From positions 1 through 55,381 of the forward strand of contig NZ_JABSNO010000024.1 in assembly GCF_013294015.1 (NCBI RefSeq): 55,381 nucleotides of DNA, in the 5' to 3' direction. The DNA is from Frigoriflavimonas asaccharolytica. GTDB taxonomy: Bacteria > Bacteroidota > Bacteroidia > Flavobacteriales > Weeksellaceae. Each line of letters opens with the position of its first letter. The first letter of the stretch is position 1. Positions 3,146-27,422 of the stretch are shown piece after piece. A model generated the notes under the pieces. The model saw nothing but the letters and a program-made list of their open reading frames with translations. It searched no databases and was not told the DNA's origin. The translations under genes and the position numbers were made by a program.

Positions 3146-3976
3146 TTAATACCCAACAACATTTTTCAAAATAACAGAATCTTTTTGTGCTGGTGTCAAT
3201 TTATAATTAAAACCAGGCATTGCAGATTCCCAATCTCCGTAGCCAGAATTTGGCAGCATAATAAATTTTTTGCCAAATAAATCTGCATTGTTTTCCACGT
3301 TTTGATTGCGTTCTGCTTGTGTTTTTTTATAAAACATATTCGCAAAATCCCCTAAATTATCTCCTAAATACAACACGACATTATAGTTTTTCAAAACTGC
3401 GTTGCGGCGTTCTTCCTTATCAGAAGTTGTGCTTCTTACGACCACATATTGCTCGTCTGCATTTGGAAAACCGAGGTCTTTCAAATTTTTCAAAGTTCCA
3501 GCTTTGTCGTTTTCATTTCTGTTTGTGATATAGAAAATTTTCACATTTTTGGAAGCAGCATATTTGAAAAAATCTAGCGAACCAGGATATGCTTTTGCAT
3601 TTGCTTTCGCCGTCCAGTTTGCCCATGTTGCATCATTAAAGTCTTTTCCTTTTTCACTTTCTGTAACCGCATAAGGTGAATTATCTAGAAAAGTTTCGTC
3701 TACATCTGTGATGATTGCCAAAGGTTTCCCTTTTTTCATTTTTAGAGCTTCGTCTAGTCTGTATGTTGCAATATTGTATGCTTGGTAAGATAAAGCCATA
3801 AATTCGCCAGAATTTTGTTGCCAAACTGCGGAGTAGATTTTTCCGTTTAAAGCAATATTTTTTGGGGTAGTTGTAGCAGTTGTTATGGTTGCATTTTCCA
3901 GTGCATTAACGGAAATTTTGCAAGATGAAAGCATTAATAATGCGATAGGAAAGAGGTATAATTTTGAGATTTTCAT
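3146..3976 (-). CDS. Lipoprotein acid phosphatase / 5'-nucleotidase, e(P4) family
   Basis: A 276-residue HAD-superfamily class C-type acid phosphatase. Seen: lipoprotein signal peptide with lipobox LMLSSC (Cys at residue 19); HAD motif I as DVDETFLDN; motif II in FFYITNR-like IFYITNRNEN; a conserved Lys region; and motif IV as LGDNLGDF with the paired acidic residues. Known: the Haemophilus e(P4) family dephosphorylates nucleotide monophosphates, including NMN, at the outer membrane, and supports NAD precursor or haem-related uptake. It follows aroA by 19 bases on the same strand and may be cotranscribed, though the functions are unrelated. The role is inferred from the family; the motif evidence is strong. 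Confidence 0.9.
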   Translation of the reverse strand: MKISKLYLFPIALLMLSSCKISVNALENATITTATTTPKNIALNGKIYSAVWQQNSGEFMALSYQAYNIATYRLDEALKMKKGKPLAIITDVDETFLDNSPYAVTESEKGKDFNDATWANWTAKANAKAYPGSLDFFKYAASKNVKIFYITNRNENDKAGTLKNLKDLGFPNADEQYVVVRSTTSDKEERRNAVLKNYNVVLYLGDNLGDFANMFYKKTQAERNQNVENNADLFGKKFIMLPNSGYGDWESAMPGFNYKLTPAQKDSVILKNVVGY

Positions 3977-18469: not shown

Positions 18470-19615
18470 TTATTCTGTAGAATTCTTTTTTAGCAAATCT
18501 TTTTTAAGTTCGATTATTGAAATTTGAATTGCATCTGTAATTTGTTTAATCTCTTTATGTGGTTTAAAAATGAAAAATTTGCCTTTGCTTTTATCGGCGA
18601 TATTAGATAATATAATGACGGATGTTTGAGTTTCTGGATAATAGATATTTAGAGAAGGCGAGCCTTTCACATAACCTGTATGAAAGTACGCTTCTGGCTT
18701 TCCTAAATTCATCATAATTCCGAAACCGTAACCCATTTTCCCTAGAATCTGATGCTTTCTATCTGAAGATTTTTCCATGAATTTTTTTAAAGATGCTGGT
18801 TTTAAAATTTTGCCAGAATATAAAGCCGAATTCCACAGATGCAAATCTGAAACGGTCGATAAAATTCCTCCTGCAGGAACAGAAATTTCTTTTTTTGCCA
18901 ATCTTTTCGGCATATTTTCCACTTCTTGAAAGTTTTTAGAATTTCCTGTAAACGCACTTGCAAAATTTTTTCCGTTAAAATTATTTGCGGTGAAAGAATT
19001 CTTCATACGTACTTTTTCAAAAAGTTCTTGTACATTTTCATCATAAGATTTACCCGAAACCTTTTCGATGATTTCTCCTAATAAACGAAATCCTTTGTTG
19101 GAATACTTGAATTTTTCTCCAGGTTTAGAATGTAGACCGTTTCCAAAATCACTCAATCCAGAAGTATGGTTGAGTAGTTGCTGAATGGTAATATTTTGAA
19201 ATTCTTTGGTTTGAAAATCACTCAAATATGTAGAAACTTGATCTTCTGTTGACAATTTCCCTTGATCTTCTTGCAACAAAACTAAAGCAGCGGTAAACTG
19301 TTTGCTTAAAGAAGCGATTGCAAAAACAGAATTTTCATCGAGTTTCTTTTTAGAATTAAAATCCTCGAAACCATTTTCTTTTTGATAGAGAATTTCATCA
19401 TTTTTAATAACGGAAACTGAACCATTAAATTGATATTTTGAAAACACAGAATCGATTTGGGTCTGCAATAATTTTTTTTGAAAACTGTTGACGGTAGAAT
19501 CAATTATTGCGGATCGAGATATGGTTTTTTGGGCAATTTTTTCTGTTTCAGATTTGCAGGAAAAAAAAGCGCAAATTAAAAATAGAAAATACAACGGATG
19601 GATTTTTTGAAACAC
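18470..19615 (-). CDS. Class C beta-lactamase-like serine hydrolase (lipoprotein)
   Basis: 381 residues. Seen: lipobox FFSC at about 20, the nucleophile motif SLSK (SxxK) in FAIASLSKQFTAAL, the YSN triad element (FKYSNKGFRLLGEIIEKVSG), and HTG in AYFHTGYVKG, the usual third motif of this group (KTG in penicillin-binding proteins). Length and motif order match the beta-lactamase/esterase/D-aminopeptidase family (COG1680-like). Known: members include esterases, peptidases and a few beta-lactamases; substrate and any resistance role cannot be inferred from sequence. It is likely anchored in the outer membrane or periplasm. Confidence 0.9.
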   Translation of the reverse strand: MFQKIHPLYFLFLICAFFSCKSETEKIAQKTISRSAIIDSTVNSFQKKLLQTQIDSVFSKYQFNGSVSVIKNDEILYQKENGFEDFNSKKKLDENSVFAIASLSKQFTAALVLLQEDQGKLSTEDQVSTYLSDFQTKEFQNITIQQLLNHTSGLSDFGNGLHSKPGEKFKYSNKGFRLLGEIIEKVSGKSYDENVQELFEKVRMKNSFTANNFNGKNFASAFTGNSKNFQEVENMPKRLAKKEISVPAGGILSTVSDLHLWNSALYSGKILKPASLKKFMEKSSDRKHQILGKMGYGFGIMMNLGKPEAYFHTGYVKGSPSLNIYYPETQTSVIILSNIADKSKGKFFIFKPHKEIKQITDAIQISIIELKKDLLKKNSTE

Positions 19616-19651: not shown

Positions 19652-19689
19652 AAATAAAAAACCATCAAGCTTTATAATCTTGATGGTTT
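19652..19689 (-). terminator. Terminator of Cys-rich miniprotein gene 1
   Basis: AAACCATCAAG (19659-19669) pairs with CTTGATGGTTT (19679-19689), 9-base loop. Read on the minus strand it is followed by TTTTTTATTT. It sits 27 bases past the stop of the 36-residue ORF, which supports that ORF being transcribed. Confidence 0.85.
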
Positions 19690-19715
19690 AGGTTTATTGT
19701 ATGTTTGTGTGTAAT

Positions 19716-19826
19716 TTATTTACCACAATTGCAATTCTCGCAAGTACAATTGGTACAAGTGCAGTTTCTGCATTCTCCAGTTTTGCAACCTTCACAGTTG
19801 CATGTGCATTTATTTGTATTTTCCAT
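19716..19826 (-). CDS. 36-residue Cys-rich (metallothionein-like) miniprotein, copy 1
   Basis: ATG at 19826-19824, TAA at 19718-19716. The peptide begins MENTNKCTCNCEGCKTG and has 11 Cys in 36 residues, at 7, 9, 11, 14, 19, 22, 24, 27, 29, 32 and 34. That is a run of C-x-C and C-x-x-C units with no aromatic or large hydrophobic residues. Known: this layout is what metallothioneins use to bind Zn, Cd or Cu(I) clusters. Support for a real gene: a strong terminator follows, a -7-like element lies upstream, and a second copy at 21809 is 32/36 identical while its four differences keep every Cys. It is divergent from padR. Metal binding is inferred; no known family is asserted. Confidence 0.8.
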   Translation of the reverse strand: MENTNKCTCNCEGCKTGECRNCTCTNCTCENCNCGK

Positions 19827-19861
19827 AATGGTAATATTTTGGTTAATGAATTAATGAATAG

Positions 19862-19869
19862 TAAAGGTA
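19862..19869 (-). promoter_or_regulatory. Candidate -7 element of miniprotein gene 1
   Basis: Minus strand TACCTTTA, one base off TAnnTTTG, 36 bases upstream of the ATG. The equivalent position of unit B has TATCTTTA inside a conserved block. Confidence 0.45.
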
Positions 19870-19994
19870 CGGAAAGTATTATTTATTTAGAAAGTAAATA
19901 AATATTAAACAACATTAAATATTTCATATAAAGATTTGTATAATTTTAATTTAGTTAATTTTTAAACTACAAATTTTTTTTATACCTAACAAAA

Positions 19995-20019
19995 TTATGC
20001 ATACATTTGTTATGCATAA
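19995..20019 (+). promoter_or_regulatory. padR operator: palindrome overlapping the -7 promoter element
   Basis: TTATGCATA (19995-20003) and TATGCATAA (20011-20019) form a perfect 9-base inverted repeat around a 7-base centre. The -7 element TACATTTG (20002-20009) lies across its middle. The start codon at 20031 is 11 bases downstream. A PadR dimer bound here would cover the promoter, so autorepression is inferred. PadR sites are commonly ATG(T/C)AT-type palindromes. Confidence 0.7.
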
Positions 20020-20030
20020 GAAAATTAGGC

Positions 20031-20357
20031 ATGAAAAAAAAGAACGAATTATACAAAGGAACGCTTCAAAATATTATTTTGAAATTGCTCGCTTCAGAAG
20101 TGAAAATGTACGGTTATCAACTCACGCAACGTGCAAAAGAACTAACTGCAGGCGAACTAGAAATGACGGAAGGTGCGCTTTATCCGCTTTTGCACAAACT
20201 CGAAAGTGACGACATCATCTATTCTCAGATGCAAAATGTAAACGGACGAGATCGCAAATATTATCTGCTCACAGAAAAAGGAAAACGCCAGCAAATTTCG
20301 CAAGAGCAAGAAATGAAAAGTTATCTATTTAATTTACAAACTATTTTTAATATTTAA
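20031..20357 (+). CDS. PadR-family transcriptional regulator
   Basis: 108 residues from MKKKNELYKGTLQ. A longer start at 20007 is rejected because it falls inside the operator and the -7 element. Seen: the PadR winged-helix pattern KGTLQNIILKLLAS, YGYQLTQRAKELT, MTEGALYPLLHKLE (recognition helix), and wing GRDRKYYLLTEKGKRQ. It lacks a long C-terminal Vir domain, so it is the short PadR-s2 type. It is followed 4 bases later by two paralogous membrane-protein genes, a common PadR-with-HAAS-like arrangement, and is divergent from the Cys-rich miniprotein gene. The inducer is unknown; autoregulation is inferred from the palindrome. Confidence 0.93.
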   Translation: MKKKNELYKGTLQNIILKLLASEVKMYGYQLTQRAKELTAGELEMTEGALYPLLHKLESDDIIYSQMQNVNGRDRKYYLLTEKGKRQQISQEQEMKSYLFNLQTIFNI

Positions 20358-20361
20358 AACG

Positions 20362-20994
20362 ATGATTACAGAAGCACAAATAAGAGACATTAGAAATTTC
20401 CTAGCCTCAAAAAAACTACAGTCGGATTTATTTTTAGAAGTAAGTGATCATTTCGTGGTGCAAATATCACAATTGATGCTTTCTAAAAATATAGATTTTG
20501 AAGAAGCATTTCTACAAACCAAAATACTTTGGATGGGAGAATTGAGAATGGTAAAAGCGGATATTCTATCTTTCAAAAAAATAACTGTAATTGAAAAGAG
20601 AATTGTAAATAAGAGGCTTAATAAAGTTTTATTAAATTCGATATTATTTCTACCCATCATATTAGGAATAAATTTTATCTTTCCAGATTTGGGAGTTTTC
20701 TTCGTGATATTTTTAAGTGCGATTCTACTTTTTCTTTTCGGTTTATCTTTGATTAAGAAAAAATTGAAATTTAGAGATTATTTATTCATTGGTTTTCATC
20801 CTTTAATTTTGAAAATAATATTGATAGGTTATATTCTTCCATTTCTAATATTTTCTATGTTACCTGCAAATTTTACTGTACCAGAATTAATTTTAGGTTT
20901 GAGTAAAAACATTTCACTTGCGGCTTTCGCTGTAGTTACACAAATTCAATTGCTATATTCCAATTTCAACAATAAAAAAGTATTATTATCATGA
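20362..20994 (+). CDS. PadR-associated membrane protein (HAAS-like), first paralogue
   Basis: 210 residues. The N-terminal about 75 residues form a soluble helical domain (EAQIRDIRNFLASKKLQSDL, VSDHFVVQISQLM, FEEAFLQTKILW). Four hydrophobic helices follow at about 92-112, 115-130, 148-170 and 180-203. The same soluble pattern (LxxKxLxxDxxxEVxDHFxxQI, then an F-E-x-x-F..K..W helix) recurs in the next gene, so the two are paralogues. Known: PadR regulators are often cotranscribed with membrane proteins bearing an N-terminal HAAS domain that may signal to the regulator. The assignment here rests on position and topology, not on a clear sequence signature. Start overlaps nothing; it ends in an ATGA overlap with the next gene. 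Confidence 0.7.
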   Translation: MITEAQIRDIRNFLASKKLQSDLFLEVSDHFVVQISQLMLSKNIDFEEAFLQTKILWMGELRMVKADILSFKKITVIEKRIVNKRLNKVLLNSILFLPIILGINFIFPDLGVFFVIFLSAILLFLFGLSLIKKKLKFRDYLFIGFHPLILKIILIGYILPFLIFSMLPANFTVPELILGLSKNISLAAFAVVTQIQLLYSNFNNKKVLLS

Positions 20995-21716
20995 ACGATC
21001 CCCAAAAATCCGAAATCACCCAATATCTTTTAGCCAAGAAATTGCCGATTGATATTCTTATTGAAGTGCAAGATCATTTTATATCGCAGATTTTGGATTT
21101 GCAGAAAGAGCAGAGTTATAGTTTTGAGAAAAGTTTTGAGAGCGTGAAAGAATCTTGGAGAAAAGAACTCACGCTATCTTGGAAAGGCGAAACGAGTTTG
21201 ATGGATTCTACAGATTTTATGCGGAAAATGAGTAAACAAATTGTGAGGTCTAATATACTAGAAAGTATGAAGATTCTTGTTCCTTATGTTTTGGTAATAA
21301 TTTTTCTGGCAAATTTTGCCAATAAAACAATTTTTCAAATTGTATTTATAGTACTAATTTCTCTACCGATTTTATATTGCATTATCAATTATATCAAAAA
21401 TTACCAAGATTTTCGCTTGCCAAAGAACAATCCAGCTCATATTTTAACCTTGCATCAAGACGGAATTATGTGGTTCGTCATTACACTTTCGCCATTCATC
21501 AATATTTTCAGATATATCTTTGATGATTCTGTTTCTTTACAAAACATGCTTGTTTATAATTTTAATGGGATGGAAACTTTGAATATTGTTCTAGGATTTT
21601 TATTCTTAGTATTTCTTTTCAGTGGACTTGCATATTCTGTAATTTGCCAAAAAAATTATCTAAAACAAGTAGGTAAAGTGAAAATATTTTTGGAAGATCA
21701 TAAGTTCGTTAAATAA
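20991..21716 (+). CDS. PadR-associated membrane protein (HAAS-like), second paralogue
   Basis: 241 residues, start codon overlapping the previous stop by 4 bases (ATGA), so translation is coupled. The N-terminal domain matches its neighbour (AKKLPIDILIEVQDHFISQI and FEKSFESVKESWRKEL). Hydrophobic segments follow near 90-110, 113-130, 155-175 and 195-218. Inferred: the padR-HAAS-HAAS unit is one operon with a membrane sensing or signalling role. It ends 42 bases before a bidirectional terminator shared with the second Cys-rich miniprotein gene. Confidence 0.7.
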   Translation: MNDPQKSEITQYLLAKKLPIDILIEVQDHFISQILDLQKEQSYSFEKSFESVKESWRKELTLSWKGETSLMDSTDFMRKMSKQIVRSNILESMKILVPYVLVIIFLANFANKTIFQIVFIVLISLPILYCIINYIKNYQDFRLPKNNPAHILTLHQDGIMWFVITLSPFINIFRYIFDDSVSLQNMLVYNFNGMETLNIVLGFLFLVFLFSGLAYSVICQKNYLKQVGKVKIFLEDHKFVK

Positions 21717-21758
21717 TATATTTTTAATTGAATGATTTACCCTCTTAAACTACAAAGA

Positions 21759-21788
21759 AAAATAGCAACTGATTAAAGTTGCTATTTT
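21759..21788. terminator. Bidirectional terminator between padR operon and miniprotein gene 2
   Basis: AAAATAGCAACT (21759-21770) pairs with AGTTGCTATTTT (21777-21788), 6-base loop. T-rich on both exits. It serves the padR operon on the plus strand and the 36-residue ORF on the minus strand. Confidence 0.8.
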
Positions 21789-21808
21789 CTTTCTGCTTTT
21801 AGAGAAAC

Positions 21809-21919
21809 TTACTTCTCACACTTGCAATTCTCGCAAGTACAATTGGTACAAGTGCAGTTTTTGCAGTTTCCAGTTTTGCAACCTTCACAGTTGCATGTGC
21901 ATTTATTGGTGTTTTCCAT
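21809..21919 (-). CDS. 36-residue Cys-rich (metallothionein-like) miniprotein, copy 2
   Basis: ATG at 21919-21917, TAA at 21811-21809. Same length and same 11 Cys positions as copy 1. It differs at residues 18 (Asn for Glu), 20 (Lys for Arg), 33 (Lys for Asn) and 35 (Glu for Gly), so it is a little more basic in the middle. Third-base changes elsewhere (for example AAC/AAT and ACC/ACA at residues 3-4) are silent, as expected for a gene under purifying selection. A hairpin terminator lies 21 bases past the stop. It is divergent from a small exported Cys-containing peptide gene. The metallothionein role is inferred from Cys spacing only. Confidence 0.8.
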   Translation of the reverse strand: MENTNKCTCNCEGCKTGNCKNCTCTNCTCENCKCEK

Positions 21920-21955
21920 TTAAATTAAATTTGTGGTTAATACATTATTGAATAG

Positions 21956-21963
21956 TAAAGATA
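21956..21963 (-). promoter_or_regulatory. Candidate -7 element of miniprotein gene 2
   Basis: Minus strand TATCTTTA, aligned with TACCTTTA of unit A, 37 bases upstream of the ATG. Confidence 0.45.
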
Positions 21964-22079
21964 CGGAAAATATAATATTTATTTAGAATGATAATAAATA
22001 TCAATAAATTAGATTTATTTATTAGAAAAAGTTGCATAATTTTAATTTAGTCACTTATTAACCAGCAAATATTTTTATT

Positions 22080-22340
22080 ATGAAAAAATTATTATTAATC
22101 GCAGTTTTAGGAATTGCTGGTACGATGAGTGCAAGTAATGCAGATCTTGTTTTACCTACACAGAACGATAATTCTGATGCTATTTGGTGCACATGGTGTG
22201 TAGTAGCAGGAGGAAATCAATACTGTGCAGAAGCTGCAAATTGTGGCGAAGCTAAAGATACTGCAAGAGCAATGGCAATTGATGAGTTGAAAAAAGCGGA
22301 AGATGCTCAAAAGAAGGAAGCAACAATATCAGCATTGTAA
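22080..22340 (+). CDS. Small exported Cys-containing peptide (86 aa)
   Basis: A Sec signal peptide (KKLLLIAVLGIAGTMSASNA, cleavage near residue 20) leaves a mature peptide of about 65 residues. It contains WCTWCVV, then QYCAEAANCGEA: four Cys in a C-x-x-C plus C-x5-C layout. A charged helical tail follows (DELKKAEDAQKKEA). I do not recognise a family. Its start lies 160 bases from the divergent miniprotein gene 2 and it has its own terminator, so it is probably a short separate transcript. It could be a disulfide-bonded secreted peptide, a metal-binding peptide or a bacteriocin-like molecule; nothing in sequence decides. Confidence 0.75.
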   Translation: MKKLLLIAVLGIAGTMSASNADLVLPTQNDNSDAIWCTWCVVAGGNQYCAEAANCGEAKDTARAMAIDELKKAEDAQKKEATISAL

Positions 22341-22401: not shown

Positions 22402-23136
22402 ATGGACTTGAGAAGTGTTAAATGTGTACTACTTGTTGTTTTAAATTTTGTTGGAGTATTACATGCCCAACAAATATTAAATGTAAAATATCAAACAAAA
22501 TACTTTGATGACACTTTTCCGAGTGAATTAAAGTATAAAGTTGATACAAAAAAATCTTTATTTATAAATTATACAAAAGAAATTGATCCAAAAACTGCAA
22601 AGATTAGCGAAAAGAATCAAATAGGAGGTGTGTTTACAGATTATAAAGAGGAATTTGTAAAAGATTTTAACGAAAATGTAGTTTATTCCAATTCAAACAT
22701 TAGTTATGTTAAAAAAACTGTGGTTAAAGAAAATTTAGAATTTGATTGGAAAATTGATTACACAGTTTTTAAAACAATTTTAAATTATAAATGTTATATG
22801 GCAAAAACATTTTTCAAAGGAAGGGATTATACTGTATATTTTACTACTGAAATTAATATACCTGATGGGCCACGTAAATTCGCTAATTTGCCAGGCTTAA
22901 TATTAGAAGTTTCTGAAGACAGTGGGATACTAAAAATTATTGCTAAAGATTTACAGTATATTGATGATCAACCTTATTTTAATTTAGATATAAAAAATGC
23001 AATTTCTTGGAATGATGCCATCATTAAAGCAAAAGTGATTTTTAACGAAAGTAGAAATGAAATTGAAAATAAATATAATAGTAGAGTAAAGACAGATTTT
23101 AGCAATCACCTAGAAAAATTTGATTTAAATAATTAG
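22402..23136 (+). CDS. GLPGLI-family exported protein, first of a pair
   Basis: 244 residues with a signal peptide ending near LHAQ (residues 1-23). The family hallmark appears as FANLPGLILEVSEDSG (NLPGLI in place of GLPGLI), preceded by TVYFTTEINIPDGPRKF, the usual tract before the motif. Known: the GLPGLI family (TIGR01200-type) occurs almost only in Bacteroidetes; members are periplasmic or surface proteins of unknown function, often in pairs or with TonB-dependent receptors. No receptor gene is adjacent here. It is followed 2 bases later by the second member, so the two are one operon. Confidence 0.88.
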   Translation: MDLRSVKCVLLVVLNFVGVLHAQQILNVKYQTKYFDDTFPSELKYKVDTKKSLFINYTKEIDPKTAKISEKNQIGGVFTDYKEEFVKDFNENVVYSNSNISYVKKTVVKENLEFDWKIDYTVFKTILNYKCYMAKTFFKGRDYTVYFTTEINIPDGPRKFANLPGLILEVSEDSGILKIIAKDLQYIDDQPYFNLDIKNAISWNDAIIKAKVIFNESRNEIENKYNSRVKTDFSNHLEKFDLNN

Positions 23137-23138
23137 CA

Positions 23139-23984
23139 ATGAGAACTTATCTAATATTTGTAATATTTTTTAGTGCTTTAGTGAATGCGCAAAATTTTAA
23201 AGTATTTTTTGAACTTAAATACCAGCCACAAGAAAAAAATGATAGTATAAAAAAGTCTGAAATAATGGTTCTTAATGTTGACATAGTAAAGAAAACTACA
23301 ACGTTTTTTAATTACAATGCTATTAAATCAGATTCAATATATGTTTTAATAAATAATTCTTCACAGATTCAAAGAGAGCAACTACTAAATATTGCTCCTG
23401 AACAATCATTTTTTTTTAATATAAAAAAAAATATTGGTGGAAGTGATATAGAGCATACTGAAAGATTTAATACAGAAAACTATGTTTATGATCAAAGATT
23501 AGTGCATAATTGGAAATTATTGGATATTTCTAAAAATATACTCGGACACTATTGCAAAGCAGCAACAGTAAATTTTGCTGGTAGATTGTGGACTGCGTGG
23601 TATACATTGGATATTCCAATTCCGGAAGGACCGTATAAATTTCACGGTTTACCTGGTTTTATTTTAAATGTGGAAAGTGCTGACAATGAATATAAATTTG
23701 AGGCGATATCTATAAGTAAAGAACTATACCCTTTAACCGATTCCAAGAATGTGATTAAAGTAAAAAATGAAAATTTCCTGCGTAATTTAAAAAAAAAATA
23801 TATTAAAGATCCAAGTGGAAAATCAAGATTAGAAGATTTGTCGTACGGATTTTCTGGAAGTTCTATAGTTAACGGTGTAAAATATAGTTCTGAAGATTCA
23901 TATAAATTATTAAATAAAGAATTAAGGGATTGGATGAAAACGCATAATAACCCGATTGAAAAGAATGATATATGGGTTAGATAA
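23139..23984 (+). CDS. GLPGLI-family exported protein, second of a pair
   Basis: 281 residues, signal peptide ending NAQ (about residue 18). Hallmark FHGLPGFILNVESADNEYKFEA with the upstream tract AWYTLDIPIPEGPYKF. It is clearly homologous to the previous protein (W..D-x-x-K-x-I-L-x-x-x-C-x-A block before the motif) but diverged, so the pair is an old duplication. The ending is Arg-rich and basic. A strong hairpin follows before icmF. The function is unknown, as for the whole family. Confidence 0.9.
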   Translation: MRTYLIFVIFFSALVNAQNFKVFFELKYQPQEKNDSIKKSEIMVLNVDIVKKTTTFFNYNAIKSDSIYVLINNSSQIQREQLLNIAPEQSFFFNIKKNIGGSDIEHTERFNTENYVYDQRLVHNWKLLDISKNILGHYCKAATVNFAGRLWTAWYTLDIPIPEGPYKFHGLPGFILNVESADNEYKFEAISISKELYPLTDSKNVIKVKNENFLRNLKKKYIKDPSGKSRLEDLSYGFSGSSIVNGVKYSSEDSYKLLNKELRDWMKTHNNPIEKNDIWVR

Positions 23985-24059: not shown

Positions 24060-27000
24060 CTACATATTCCTCCTATACATCCCACCAACTTCAAAAAGCG
24101 CATTGGTAATTTGCCCAAGAGAACAATATTTCACAGCTTCCATCATTACCTCAAAAAGATTTTCTTGGTTGATGGCTGCATGTTGCAAAATTCTTAAAGA
24201 TTCATCTATTTTCGACTCGTTTGCTTCTTGATACACTTTTAGATTTTTTATTTGAGATTGCTTTTCTTCTTCCGTAGAACGAATTACTTCTCCTGGCAAA
24301 ACTGTTGGCGAACCATCTTTTCCAAGGAAAGTATTTACTCCAACAATTGGAAATTCACCTGTGTGTTTCAGCCATTCGTAATGCATGCTTTCTTCCTGAA
24401 TTTTAGAACGTTGATACATGGTTTCCATCGCTCCTAAAACTCCGCCACGTTCCGTGATTTTGTCAAATTCTGCATAAACTGCTTCTTCTACCAAGTCTGT
24501 TAATTCTTCTATTATAAATGAACCTTGCAATGGATTTTCATTTTTCGTTAAGCCTAATTCTTTGTTAATAATCAATTGAATTGCCATTGCTCGTCGCACA
24601 GAATTTTCTGTAGGTGTGGTGATTGCTTCATCGTAAGCGTTCGTATGCAGCGAGTTACAGTTGTCATAGATTGCATATAATGCTTGTAACGTAGTTCTGA
24701 TATCATTAAAATCAATTTCCTGCGCATGCAAAGATCTTCCCGAAGTTTGAATGTGGTATTTCAACATCTGACTTCTTTCGTTGGCGTTGTATTTCAATTT
24801 CATAGCTTTTGCCCAAATTCTACGCGCAACTCTACCAATTACAGCGTATTCTGGATCAATTCCATTAGAAAAGAAGAAGGATAAATTTGGTGCAAAATCG
24901 TTGATGTCCATTCCTCTCGCCAAATAATATTCCACATAAGTGAAACCGTTGGAAAGGGTAAATGCCAATTGAGAAATCGGATTTGCACCCGCTTCTGCAA
25001 TGTGATACCCAGAAATAGAAACCGAATAGAAATTCCGAACTTTCTCTTTAATAAAGTATTCCTGAACATCGCCCATCAATCTCAAAGCAAATTCTGTAGA
25101 AAAAATACAGGTGTTTTGTGCCTGATCTTCTTTCAAAATATCTGCTTGAACCGTTCCACGAACAGTTGCAATTGTTTTTGCTTTGATGTCTGCATAAATT
25201 TCTTTATCTAAAATTTCATCGCCCGTTAAACCTAAAAGTTGCAAACCAAGACCATTATTTCCTTTTGGCAAATCTCCGCTGTAGGTTGGTCTGGCTAAAT
25301 TTTTATCGTCGAATTTTTCTTTTAATGCTTTTTCTACTAAATTTTCTAGACCATTATCAGCGATGTATTTTTCACAATTTTGATCGATGGCTGCATTCAT
25401 AAAAAACGCCAGCAACATTGGTGCAGGTCCATTGATCGTCATAGAAACCGAACACATTGCATTCACTAAATCAAAACCAGAATACAATTTTTTGGCATCA
25501 TCCAAAGTAGCGATAGAAACTCCCGCATTTCCAATTTTACCAAAAATATCTGGTGGAAAAGCTGGATCTTGTCCGTATAAAGTTACAGAATCAAAGGCTG
25601 TAGAAAGTCTTTTGGCATCCATATCTGCAGAAACGTAATGGAATCTACGGTTCGTACGTTCTGGTCCACCTTCTCCGGCAAACATTCTCGTAGGATCTTC
25701 GCCTGTTCTTTTGAAAGGGAAAAGTCCTGCAGTAAACGGGAATTGTCCTGGTACATTTTCTTGCCCTTTCCATTGAATGAGATCTCCCCAATCTTGAAAT
25801 TTTGGTAAAGAAATTTTTGGAATGTCTAATCCAGACAAACTTTTGGATGAGGTTTCTACTTTTATTTCCTTTCCACGAACAAAATAAGAGTAAGAATCTC
25901 CTTTCATTTCTTCTTTAAATTTTCTCCAACCGTTTAGGAAAAAAGTGTTCTCTTCAGAAAGTTCTTTTTTAGTTTTAATGAAAGCTTTTTCTAATTTTTC
26001 AGTAGTATGTTCATCGTCCGTAATCAAAACTTTTGCACCATCCAAAAGGTACATATTTTTTGCGATCAAGGCTTGTTTGCGAACATCTGCATCGTAGTTT
26101 CTATTATTTTCTACAATTTCTGATAGATAACGAACCCTTCTTGGTGGAATAATGGTCGTATCTTCCAATACGTTTTGTTCCACATATTCGCTTAAATTTA
26201 ATGCTGGAAAACGTTCATTTGTTAATTGTATTAACGAATTGTAAAGTGAAGTAGTTCCGGCATCATTGAACTGGCTTGCTTTTGTAGAAAAAATTGGCAT
26301 TTCGTCCAAAGTTTTTTCAAAAGCAACATGATTTCTTTGATATTGCTTTTGCACGGCTCTCATTGCATCTAATGCTCCGTTTTTGTCAGATTTATTTAAG
26401 GCAACCAAATCTGCAAAATCCAGCATGTCAATTTTTTCCAATTGCGTTGCAGCGCCAAATTCTGGTGTCATCACATACATAGAAACATCCGCAATTTCTG
26501 TAATTTCTGACCCAGATTGACCAATTCCAGAAGTTTCTAGAATAATGATGTCTGGTTTTGCTAATTTTAAAATATTTAAAGCGGAATGAATGTACGGCGA
26601 AACGGAAACATTGTTTTCTCTGGTCGCCATAGAACGCATATACACTCTTTTATCATCAATAGAATTCATGCGAATACGATCTCCGAGAAGTGCGCCTCCA
26701 GTTTTCTTTTTTGATGGATCTATAGAAATAATAGCCACTTTGCTATTTGAATTTGAGCGTAGAAATCTTCGCACCAATTCATCCGTCAACGAAGATTTTC
26801 CTGCTCCTCCAGTTCCCGTAATTCCGATGATTGGAATGGTAGAATCTTTTGCTTTTTCGTCTATAGTTTTTACTAAATCTTGCTTTTCATCAGAAAAATT
26901 TTCTACGGCAGATATAATTTCCGCGATGGATTTAGAATTCTCAAAATTGATTTTATCAAGATCAGAAACTTCAACCTCTTTTCCAGTTGCGAAATCAGAT

Positions 27001-27422
27001 TTTTGCACCAAATCGTCTATCATACCTTGCAATCCCATTGCTCTACCATCATCTGGACTGTAGATTCTGGTAATTCCATAGTCCATTAAATCCTTTATTT
27101 CTTCAGGTAAAATAACACCACCACCACCACCAAAAATCTTGATGTGTGAGGAATTTCTTTCTTTTAAAAGGTCAAAAATATATTTAAAATATTCGTTGTG
27201 TCCACCTTGATAAGAGGTCAAAGCAATTGCATTCGCATCTTCTTGTATGGCGCAATTCACTACTTCTTCGGCAGATTTATCATGCCCAAGATGTATCACT
27301 TCGCAACCAGTAGCTTGTATCACTCTTCTCATCACGTTGATTGCTGCATCATGACCGTCAAACAATGCTGCTGCGGTTACAATTCTTACTTTATTTTTCG
27401 GGGTATATTTTTGGGTTTCCAT
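24060..27422 (-). CDS. icmF: Fused isobutyryl-CoA mutase (B12 domain + MeaB-like GTPase + mutase)
   Basis: 1120 residues. Seen in order: the coenzyme B12-binding domain ([13 protein letters not shown], cobalt-ligand His24); a MeaB-type G-protein chaperone domain ([17 protein letters not shown] near 200, LNKSDK); and a methylmalonyl-CoA mutase-type barrel from about 540 ([34 protein letters not shown]). This three-part fusion is IcmF. Two specificity positions agree: Phe581 (RMFAG) where methylmalonyl-CoA mutase has Tyr, and Gln769 (QNTCIF) where the mutase has Arg. It interconverts isobutyryl-CoA and n-butyryl-CoA, linking valine/fatty-acid and propionate-type metabolism; some IcmF also act on pivalyl-CoA. 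It is monocistronic. Confidence 0.9.

Follow-up and report, generated by a model that had tools for sequence, protein, structure and literature searches.

SmtA-type metallothioneins have a zinc-finger-like fold and often contain His (PMC10612145). Among sigma factors of the extracytoplasmic function (ECF) class, CorE of Myxococcus depends on its Cys-rich tail for the copper response, and the 21 sigma factors with a Cys-rich domain (CRD) that the same source counts come from four phyla, Bacteroidetes not being included there (PMC3107203); matches to CorE homologues in Bacteroidota have been described on the basis of broad family models (PMC10141476). The Cd- and Zn-responsive tail of CorE2 opens with a Cys pair, and OrbS carries an on-board iron sensor in the form of a C-terminal Cys cluster, as described in PMC9023288. 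Here, we analyzed a 55,381-nucleotide stretch of DNA from Frigoriflavimonas asaccharolytica (the window), which encodes two small Cys-rich, metallothionein-like peptides, and compared it with related loci. Judging from comparative sequence evidence, the peptide is probably a Zn/Cd-buffering metallothionein that was ancestrally driven by a metal-sensing sigma factor, and the lineage of the window would have lost this sigma factor and its promoter and duplicated the peptide. The linkage of a metallothionein-like peptide gene to a Cys-tailed, SigZ-like ECF sigma factor is new, as is a peptide family outside the Pfam and NCBIfam catalogues. No prior description of the peptide or of a metallothionein-sigma factor operon was found in open-licence literature titles.

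Two copies of a conserved Cys-rich peptide gene

The two peptide genes and their flanking elements lie as follows (coordinates are those of the window).

19716-19826, minus strand: metallothionein-like peptide, copy 1, 36 amino acids, 11 Cys (open reading frame [ORF], homology, selection)
21809-21919, minus strand: metallothionein-like peptide, copy 2, 36 amino acids, 11 Cys (ORF, homology, selection)
19827-19980, minus strand: duplicated upstream region of copy 1, 75 to 82% identical to the copy 2 region
21920-22076, minus strand: duplicated upstream region of copy 2 (DNA comparison)
19862-19869, minus strand: promoter-like element TAcCTTTA of copy 1, about 36 nt before the ATG
21956-21963, minus strand: promoter-like element TAtCTTTA of copy 2, about 36 nt before the ATG
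19653-19698, minus strand: hairpin with a T-rich 3' arm past the stop of copy 1, drawn without a shuffled control
21752-21796, minus strand: hairpin past the stop of copy 2, drawn without a shuffled control, unrelated in sequence to the copy 1 hairpin

As the first-pass annotation of this DNA had it, both genes are minus-strand ORFs of 36 codons. Their products, MENTNKCTCNCEGCKTGECRNCTCTNCTCENCNCGK and MENTNKCTCNCEGCKTGNCKNCTCTNCTCENCKCEK, differ at 4 positions and carry 11 Cys apiece in register. Cys, spaced as C-x-C or C-x-x-C, makes up 31% (11/36) of each peptide, which is a very high content; neither contains a single His or aromatic residue, and some relatives have one Tyr or His. The duplicated unit consists of ungapped blocks 2093 to 2096 nt apart, with 89% identity over 123 nt of the coding sequence and, upstream, 82% over 51 nt plus 75% over 104 nt. 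Its upstream part, previously put at some 140 bases, measures about 154 nt, and a DNA search of the whole genome found the unit at no place beyond these two. The TAnCTTTA element was also correctly placed upstream of each copy. TAnnTTTA is present in 10 of 10 sequences from the window and its sister genus and TAnCTTTA in 8 of 10; we take it to resemble the Bacteroidetes -7 consensus. A hairpin past each stop, likewise noted before, can be drawn at both copies. Several sister-genus loci have a hairpin similar to that of copy 1 (CCATCAAG...) but not to that of copy 2, and copy 1 therefore probably retains the older 3' end.

Homologues with conserved Cys outside this genome, whose absence the first-pass annotation had named as grounds for abandoning its proposal, were found in the sister genus (8 of 36 genomes, profile search) and in other Flavobacteriales. 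The counts take in the genome of the window wherever that belonged to the sample: the peptide was present in 10 of 296 genomes of the family (protein search) and in 11 of 395 genomes of the order (profile search). A profile search of the phylum gave 6 of 395 genomes, one of the six being a weak false match from another family of the phylum (L022, E of 0.0088), which was dropped since its Cys spacing does not fit. Of all genomes that the genome searches matched, the window's is the sole one with two copies.

The dN/dS-type comparison of homologues that had been suggested earlier showed strong constraint. Summed over 45 pairs of 10 sequences from the window and the sister genus, the proportion of differences was 0.70 at synonymous sites (pS) versus 0.096 at nonsynonymous sites (pN); synonymous sites are thus near saturation while the protein is conserved. 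The corresponding values were 0.77 and 0.22 for the other 26 sequences and 0.20 and 0.061 for copy 1 versus copy 2. This conservation excludes chance ORFs and, as far as sequence can tell, the two ORFs are real genes whose family is orthologous and under strong constraint. Of 36 sequences, 35 retain the complete set of 11 Cys, and each of the 11 Cys columns contains both TGT and TGC codons; the exception (L152, from genome G095) has 9 Cys and ends after the ninth. Selection for the first nine Cys was built into the search: the pattern demanded them in 17 of the 36 sequences, the locus finder in every one, and the 17 loci from profile or protein search all passed this nine-Cys locus finder. T8, E12, G17, T23, and N26 are the invariant non-Cys residues of an 11-sequence alignment.

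A pattern scan for the nine-Cys spacing in named genomes, which is not a census, yielded at least 117 loci. Among the matches listed, 17 loci were free of extra Cys, all of them in Bacteroidota, and they span Gelidibacter, Tenacibaculum, Polaribacter, Leptobacterium, Oceanihabitans, Winogradskyella, and Lutibacter, the remainder being unnamed Flavobacteriaceae, Flavobacteriales, and Bacteroidetes and one Cytophagales metagenome-assembled genome (MAG). The other 100 of the at least 117 loci, without a match free of extra Cys, were dropped as poly-Cys artefacts, many of them being runs of Cys codons. Neither 72,556 plasmid nor 50,697 phage records contained a tblastn match to the peptide, and an origin from a mobile element is unsupported by these records. 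Pfam gave no match at an E of ≤1 for both window copies and none at an E of ≤10 for five relatives, and no NCBIfam model matches the peptide. The known bacterial metallothionein model, PF02069, exceeded its cut-off in none of the 395 genomes of the order (one subthreshold match, 20.3 bits); Synechococcus elongatus was the sole positive of 14 controls.

A SigZ-like sigma factor and its apparent promoter motif in related loci

Gene neighborhoods were compared for 36 peptide copies from 34 loci and the window. In 24 of 35 sources, one of which is the window, the stretch fetched contains the gene of a large protein (cluster c0), which marks an orthologous place. In 20 loci, the gene next to the peptide on its 3' side has the same orientation, codes for a member of a single cluster of 179- to 200-amino-acid proteins, and lies 46 to 131 nt away; the same gene lies 67 to 81 nt downstream in the genomes of three loci whose stretches ended early (L031, L060, and L072), and the gap in L152 is 7 nt if the ATG at 3955 is taken. 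This gene encodes a SigZ-like ECF sigma factor and, window and sister genus aside, comes directly after the peptide gene in 23 of 26 loci. The other three (L045, L130, and L141) have neither an adjacent sigma factor nor the promoter motif described below, and no SigZ of the peptide-linked type is found in their genomes. In L130 (positions 1 to 543), from the Cytophagales MAG, the 11-Cys peptide lies 38 nt before another ORF, presumably that of an iron/manganese superoxide dismutase.

For each of the five linked sigma factors tested, the SigZ models TIGR02959 and NF007215 took the top two places among NCBIfam matches. Two of the five proteins scored above the TIGR02959 cut-off of 168.65 (171.3 and 181.7) and three below it (154.6, 154.6, and 158.3), and none reached that of NF007215. 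Six residues, H91, C96, C154, C155, C175, and C178, are invariant in 19 of 19 sequences. The four tail Cys, arranged as a Cys pair and a CxxC, constitute a CorE-like C-terminal Cys-rich domain. A CXC in the linker between sigma2 and sigma4 was not found in the linked sigma factor, which has the invariant C96 and H91 instead. An AlphaFold model from 11 sequences (mean predicted local distance difference test score of 77.9, 61 to 67 in the Cys tail; predicted template modeling score of 0.43) was too weak to group the Cys residues.

Presence of the peptide and of its type of SigZ coincided. Across the 395 genomes of the order, matches of 281 to 327 bits were found in all 8 peptide-bearing genomes of another family, taken as Flavobacteriaceae (f2), and in no others, and the next best match scored 158 bits; 7 of those 8 genomes had supplied rows of the SigZ profile. 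With each of its 19 rows left out in turn, the scores were 223 to 322 bits versus ≤160 for three SigZ proteins of a second type. The window's genome had no match to the peptide-linked type at an E of ≤1e-25, and the best two sigma factor matches in the sister genus were second-type proteins (159 bits) encoded elsewhere in the genome. G095, which belongs to the same family as the window, retains the order c0-peptide-sigZ together with the promoter at L152, and the loss of sigZ probably falls in the branch of the window and the sister genus. In seven of eight sister-genus loci (L144 to L148, L150, and L151), an HbpS-like cluster (PF03928, one member tested) occupies the site 3' of the peptide that sigZ has in other families.

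Upstream of the peptide, the sigma-linked loci share an ECF-type promoter motif, TGCATCTTT-N14-GTCTA, with invariant spacing. TGC(A/G)TCTTT and GTCTA, 23 nt apart from start to start, were found in 23 of 23 such loci (GTCTT in L034), 25 to 27 nt before the peptide ATG in all but one, where the distance is 65 nt. The motif at 23-nt spacing was absent from all 13 sequences without adjacent sigZ (Fisher P = 4e-10, kinship ignored). In a scan of 20 genomes, the exact motif preceded the peptide in 9 of 9 genomes with peptide and SigZ; it was absent from the window's genome and from all 10 peptide-free f2 genomes, two of which (G396 and G423) have other SigZ-like genes. As a control, the reversed pattern gave 2 exact matches in the 20 genomes.

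Beyond the peptide loci, two extra exact sites were detected in two genomes, each before a gene for a cation diffusion facilitator (CDF) exporter. Allowing one mismatch in 12 genomes gave 25 sites, 12 at the peptide and 13 others. Five of the latter lie outside ORFs, 18 to 54 nt before the start codons of three CDF exporters and two TonB-dependent receptors; the receptors are related to each other, and one is directly upstream of a CDF gene. The exporters match PF01545 and exceed the cut-off of TIGR01297, and their best specific model is ZitB (Zn), below its cut-off. One CDF gene follows a gene for a resistance-nodulation-division (RND) adaptor, whose best model, CzcB/NccB, stays under cut-off while the general adaptor model is over it. 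Since the motif was derived from peptide loci alone, these sites are an independent pointer to divalent metals, and in relatives both motif sharing with CDF exporters and the Cys-tailed sigma factor partner support a predicted metal role of the peptide.

A second peptide type accompanies the second type of SigZ. Small ORFs of 37 to 41 amino acids with 14 Cys lie upstream of it in eight loci (L169 to L173, L177, L189, and L190), which stem from 6 of 20 second-tier sigma factor matches and two sister-genus matches. The sigma factor ORF begins 33 to 49 nt after the 14-Cys ORF in the seven of eight loci where it was located. Four of the eight peptides were scanned against Pfam, with no match at an E of ≤10. 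All eight are preceded by TGTATC(T/C)TTT ... GTCT(A/C) with the same spacing as the 11-Cys motif. Near a more distant SigZ-like gene in L188, a 26-residue peptide rich in Cys pairs (MKTKEIIVKGRNNCCDSGCCGGSGCC, around position 1258) is possibly a third type. Further distant SigZ-like proteins (L174, L175, L176, L182, and L184) have a Cys pair and additional tail Cys; the stretches fetched around them contain no small ORF rich in Cys. In the window, whose lineage is without them, one sees neither the operon partner sigZ nor the ECF-type promoter nor the second type of peptide.

Function of the peptide and alternative explanations

In the proposed mechanism, the cytosolic peptide would chelate a thiophilic divalent metal, most likely Zn or Cd, through its 11 thiolates. 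Ancestrally, excess Zn or Cd would load the Cys tail of SigZ, as in CorE2, and the metal-loaded holoenzyme would fire at GTCTA promoters, turning on its own operon and the exporters; the peptide would then lower free metal and close the loop. In the window, the sigma factor layer would be gone, leaving the peptide at its old place as a stand-alone buffer behind a housekeeping-type promoter, and the duplication would raise its dosage. We infer metal binding from the features of the family, and the assignment to a metal (Zn, Cd, Co, or Cu) would follow from the linked genes and from analogy. The first-pass annotation had pictured a flavobacterial metal-buffering peptide in two differently regulated copies. 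The former part holds as a conserved, selected metallothionein-like family with a metal role suggested by genomic evidence from relatives; the latter does not, as both copies share the duplicated upstream region and TAnCTTTA, and only the hairpins past the stops differ. A different promoter for each copy was rejected on the same ground.

Several observations weigh against a Zn/Cd buffer once under sigma factor control. The occurrence of the peptide is patchy, and the PDB holds no significantly similar sequence (best E of 8). The last two Cys are the freest test of Cys conservation, the first nine being partly preselected. The window copies have neither SigZ nor the motif, and their putative metal role therefore rests on orthology; a sequence 90 nt upstream of copy 2 resembles the motif with two mismatches and 22-nt spacing, which we count as chance. 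At one mismatch, the reversed control gave 12 matches versus 25. Moreover, 8 of the 13 nonpeptide sites fall inside ORFs of ≥50 amino acids and are mostly clear background; the L226 site is in a 52-amino-acid, possibly spurious ORF, 66 nt before a nonmetal gene, presumably one for a topoisomerase subunit. CDF genes behind the motif were found in only 3 of the 12 SigZ genomes.

The findings in relatives also permit a wider reading, which we put forward only tentatively: a general, undescribed Zn/Cd stress circuit of Bacteroidota, in which a one-component, Cys-tailed SigZ-type ECF sigma factor is encoded together with a metallothionein-like peptide. Two or more types of the peptide, the 11-Cys and 14-Cys ones included, with matching sigma factors, would use almost one promoter code, the peptide would directly set the metal threshold of the sigma factor, and the window would represent an end state in which the switch has been lost and a duplicated buffer left.

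Among the alternatives, the peptide could be a partner of the Cys-tailed sigma factor, anti-sigma-like or as a metal donor or acceptor, and not a bulk buffer. Such a role would suit the tight linkage, seen in 23 of 26 loci, and the co-occurrence, as well as the lack of a recurrent anti-sigma gene among clusters found in at least three loci, of which only part were annotated. However, the window and the sister genus keep the peptide in the absence of the sigma factor, as do L045, L130, and L141, which have no adjacent sigma factor, no motif, and no SigZ of the peptide-linked type in the genome. We regard this explanation as unlikely.

We consider it quite unlikely that the main task of the peptide is to bind Cu(I), like mycobacterial MymT or a 28-residue Neurospora peptide. 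Its ligands are all Cys, with no His, and the sole metallothionein in the PDB listing was the 28-residue 1m0j (MT_nc), presumably the one from Neurospora, at the nonsignificant E of 8. Against copper, the motif-linked exporters of the CDF family have a Zn model (ZitB, below cut-off) as their best specific match, one of them stands beside the RND adaptor best matched by CzcB/NccB, and the tail of the sigma factor opens with a Cys pair, as in the Cd/Zn-responsive CorE2.

A Cys-sensing leader peptide, in which the Cys-rich ORF and hairpin form an attenuator and ribosome stalling on Cys codons controls the downstream gene without any metal ligand, would match the look of a short Cys-rich ORF, possible hairpin, and then sigZ in many loci but is very improbable: the window and eight sister-genus genomes retain the peptide with no sigZ beside it and with differing downstream genes, the C-x-C/C-x-x-C spacing is exact, with T8, E12, G17, T23, and N26 invariant and pN far below pS where clustered Cys codons would suffice, and the same motif stands 18 to 54 nt before three CDF genes, leaving no room for such a leader.

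With a Zn/Cd-buffering metallothionein as the preferred reading, the order would gain a metallothionein-like family that escapes both Pfam and NCBIfam. Records of metallothioneins from bacteria are sparse, and PF02069 gave no above-threshold match in the 395 genomes sampled here. SigZ-type sigma factors, for which no paper on a metal role was found in the open-licence literature, would gain a predicted signal (Zn/Cd) and target genes.

Neighboring genes and comparison with known systems

Four further features surround the peptide copies in the window.

20031-20357, plus strand: PadR-family regulator (PF03551) between both copies (Pfam)
20362-21716, plus strand: two paralogous proteins (20362-20994 and 20991-21716) with no assigned family, 3' of padR (ORF comparison)
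18470-19615, minus strand: serine hydrolase (PF00144) downstream of copy 1 (Pfam), a syntenic neighbor of the peptide in the sister genus
24060-27422, minus strand: large protein of cluster c0, with homologues in the stretches fetched around the peptide of the sister genus and of many f2 loci

The cluster c0 protein is presumably a fused methylmalonyl-CoA mutase (IcmF). PadR was rejected as a regulator of the peptide: it lies between the copies, yet no recurrence was seen at the 34 other peptide loci compared. Two adjoining GLPGLI-family proteins are encoded at 22402-23984, beside a secreted-looking, 86-amino-acid small ORF (22080-22340) that runs divergently from peptide copy 2.

The alpha domain of mammalian metallothionein holds 11 Cys in about 30 to 36 residues and forms an M4Cys11 cluster. 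The window peptide is like it in Cys count, whereas the spacing differs and the PDB search found no sequence match. With SmtA and BmtA (PF02069, Metallothio_Pro), the peptide shares small size, Cys richness, and a probable role as an intracellular Zn/Cd ligand. Unlike them, it has 36 residues, no match to PF02069 or any other Pfam model, no His, and no aromatic residue. The His ligands and the hydrophobic residues of the zinc-finger-like fold that mark PF02069-type proteins are missing from both window copies, and membership in this family was rejected.

The linked sigma factor, for its part, resembles OrbS (ECF243) in having a C-terminal Cys cluster as the putative built-in metal sensor of an ECF sigma factor, whereas OrbS is inhibited by Fe(II), governs siderophore genes, and has no metallothionein. 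The SigZ family (TIGR02959 and NF007215) supplied the two best matches of all five proteins tested, with only two over the TIGR02959 cut-off and none over that of NF007215. To CorE and CorE2 (ECF44/238 of Myxococcus), the likeness lies in sigma2 and sigma4 followed by a Cys-rich C-terminal extension, in the probable metal resistance targets and, for CorE2, in the Cys pair of the tail. The linked protein differs from both in its CC-x19-C-x2-C arrangement without a linker CXC, in being nearer to the SigZ models, and in the metallothionein-like gene that stands in front of it.

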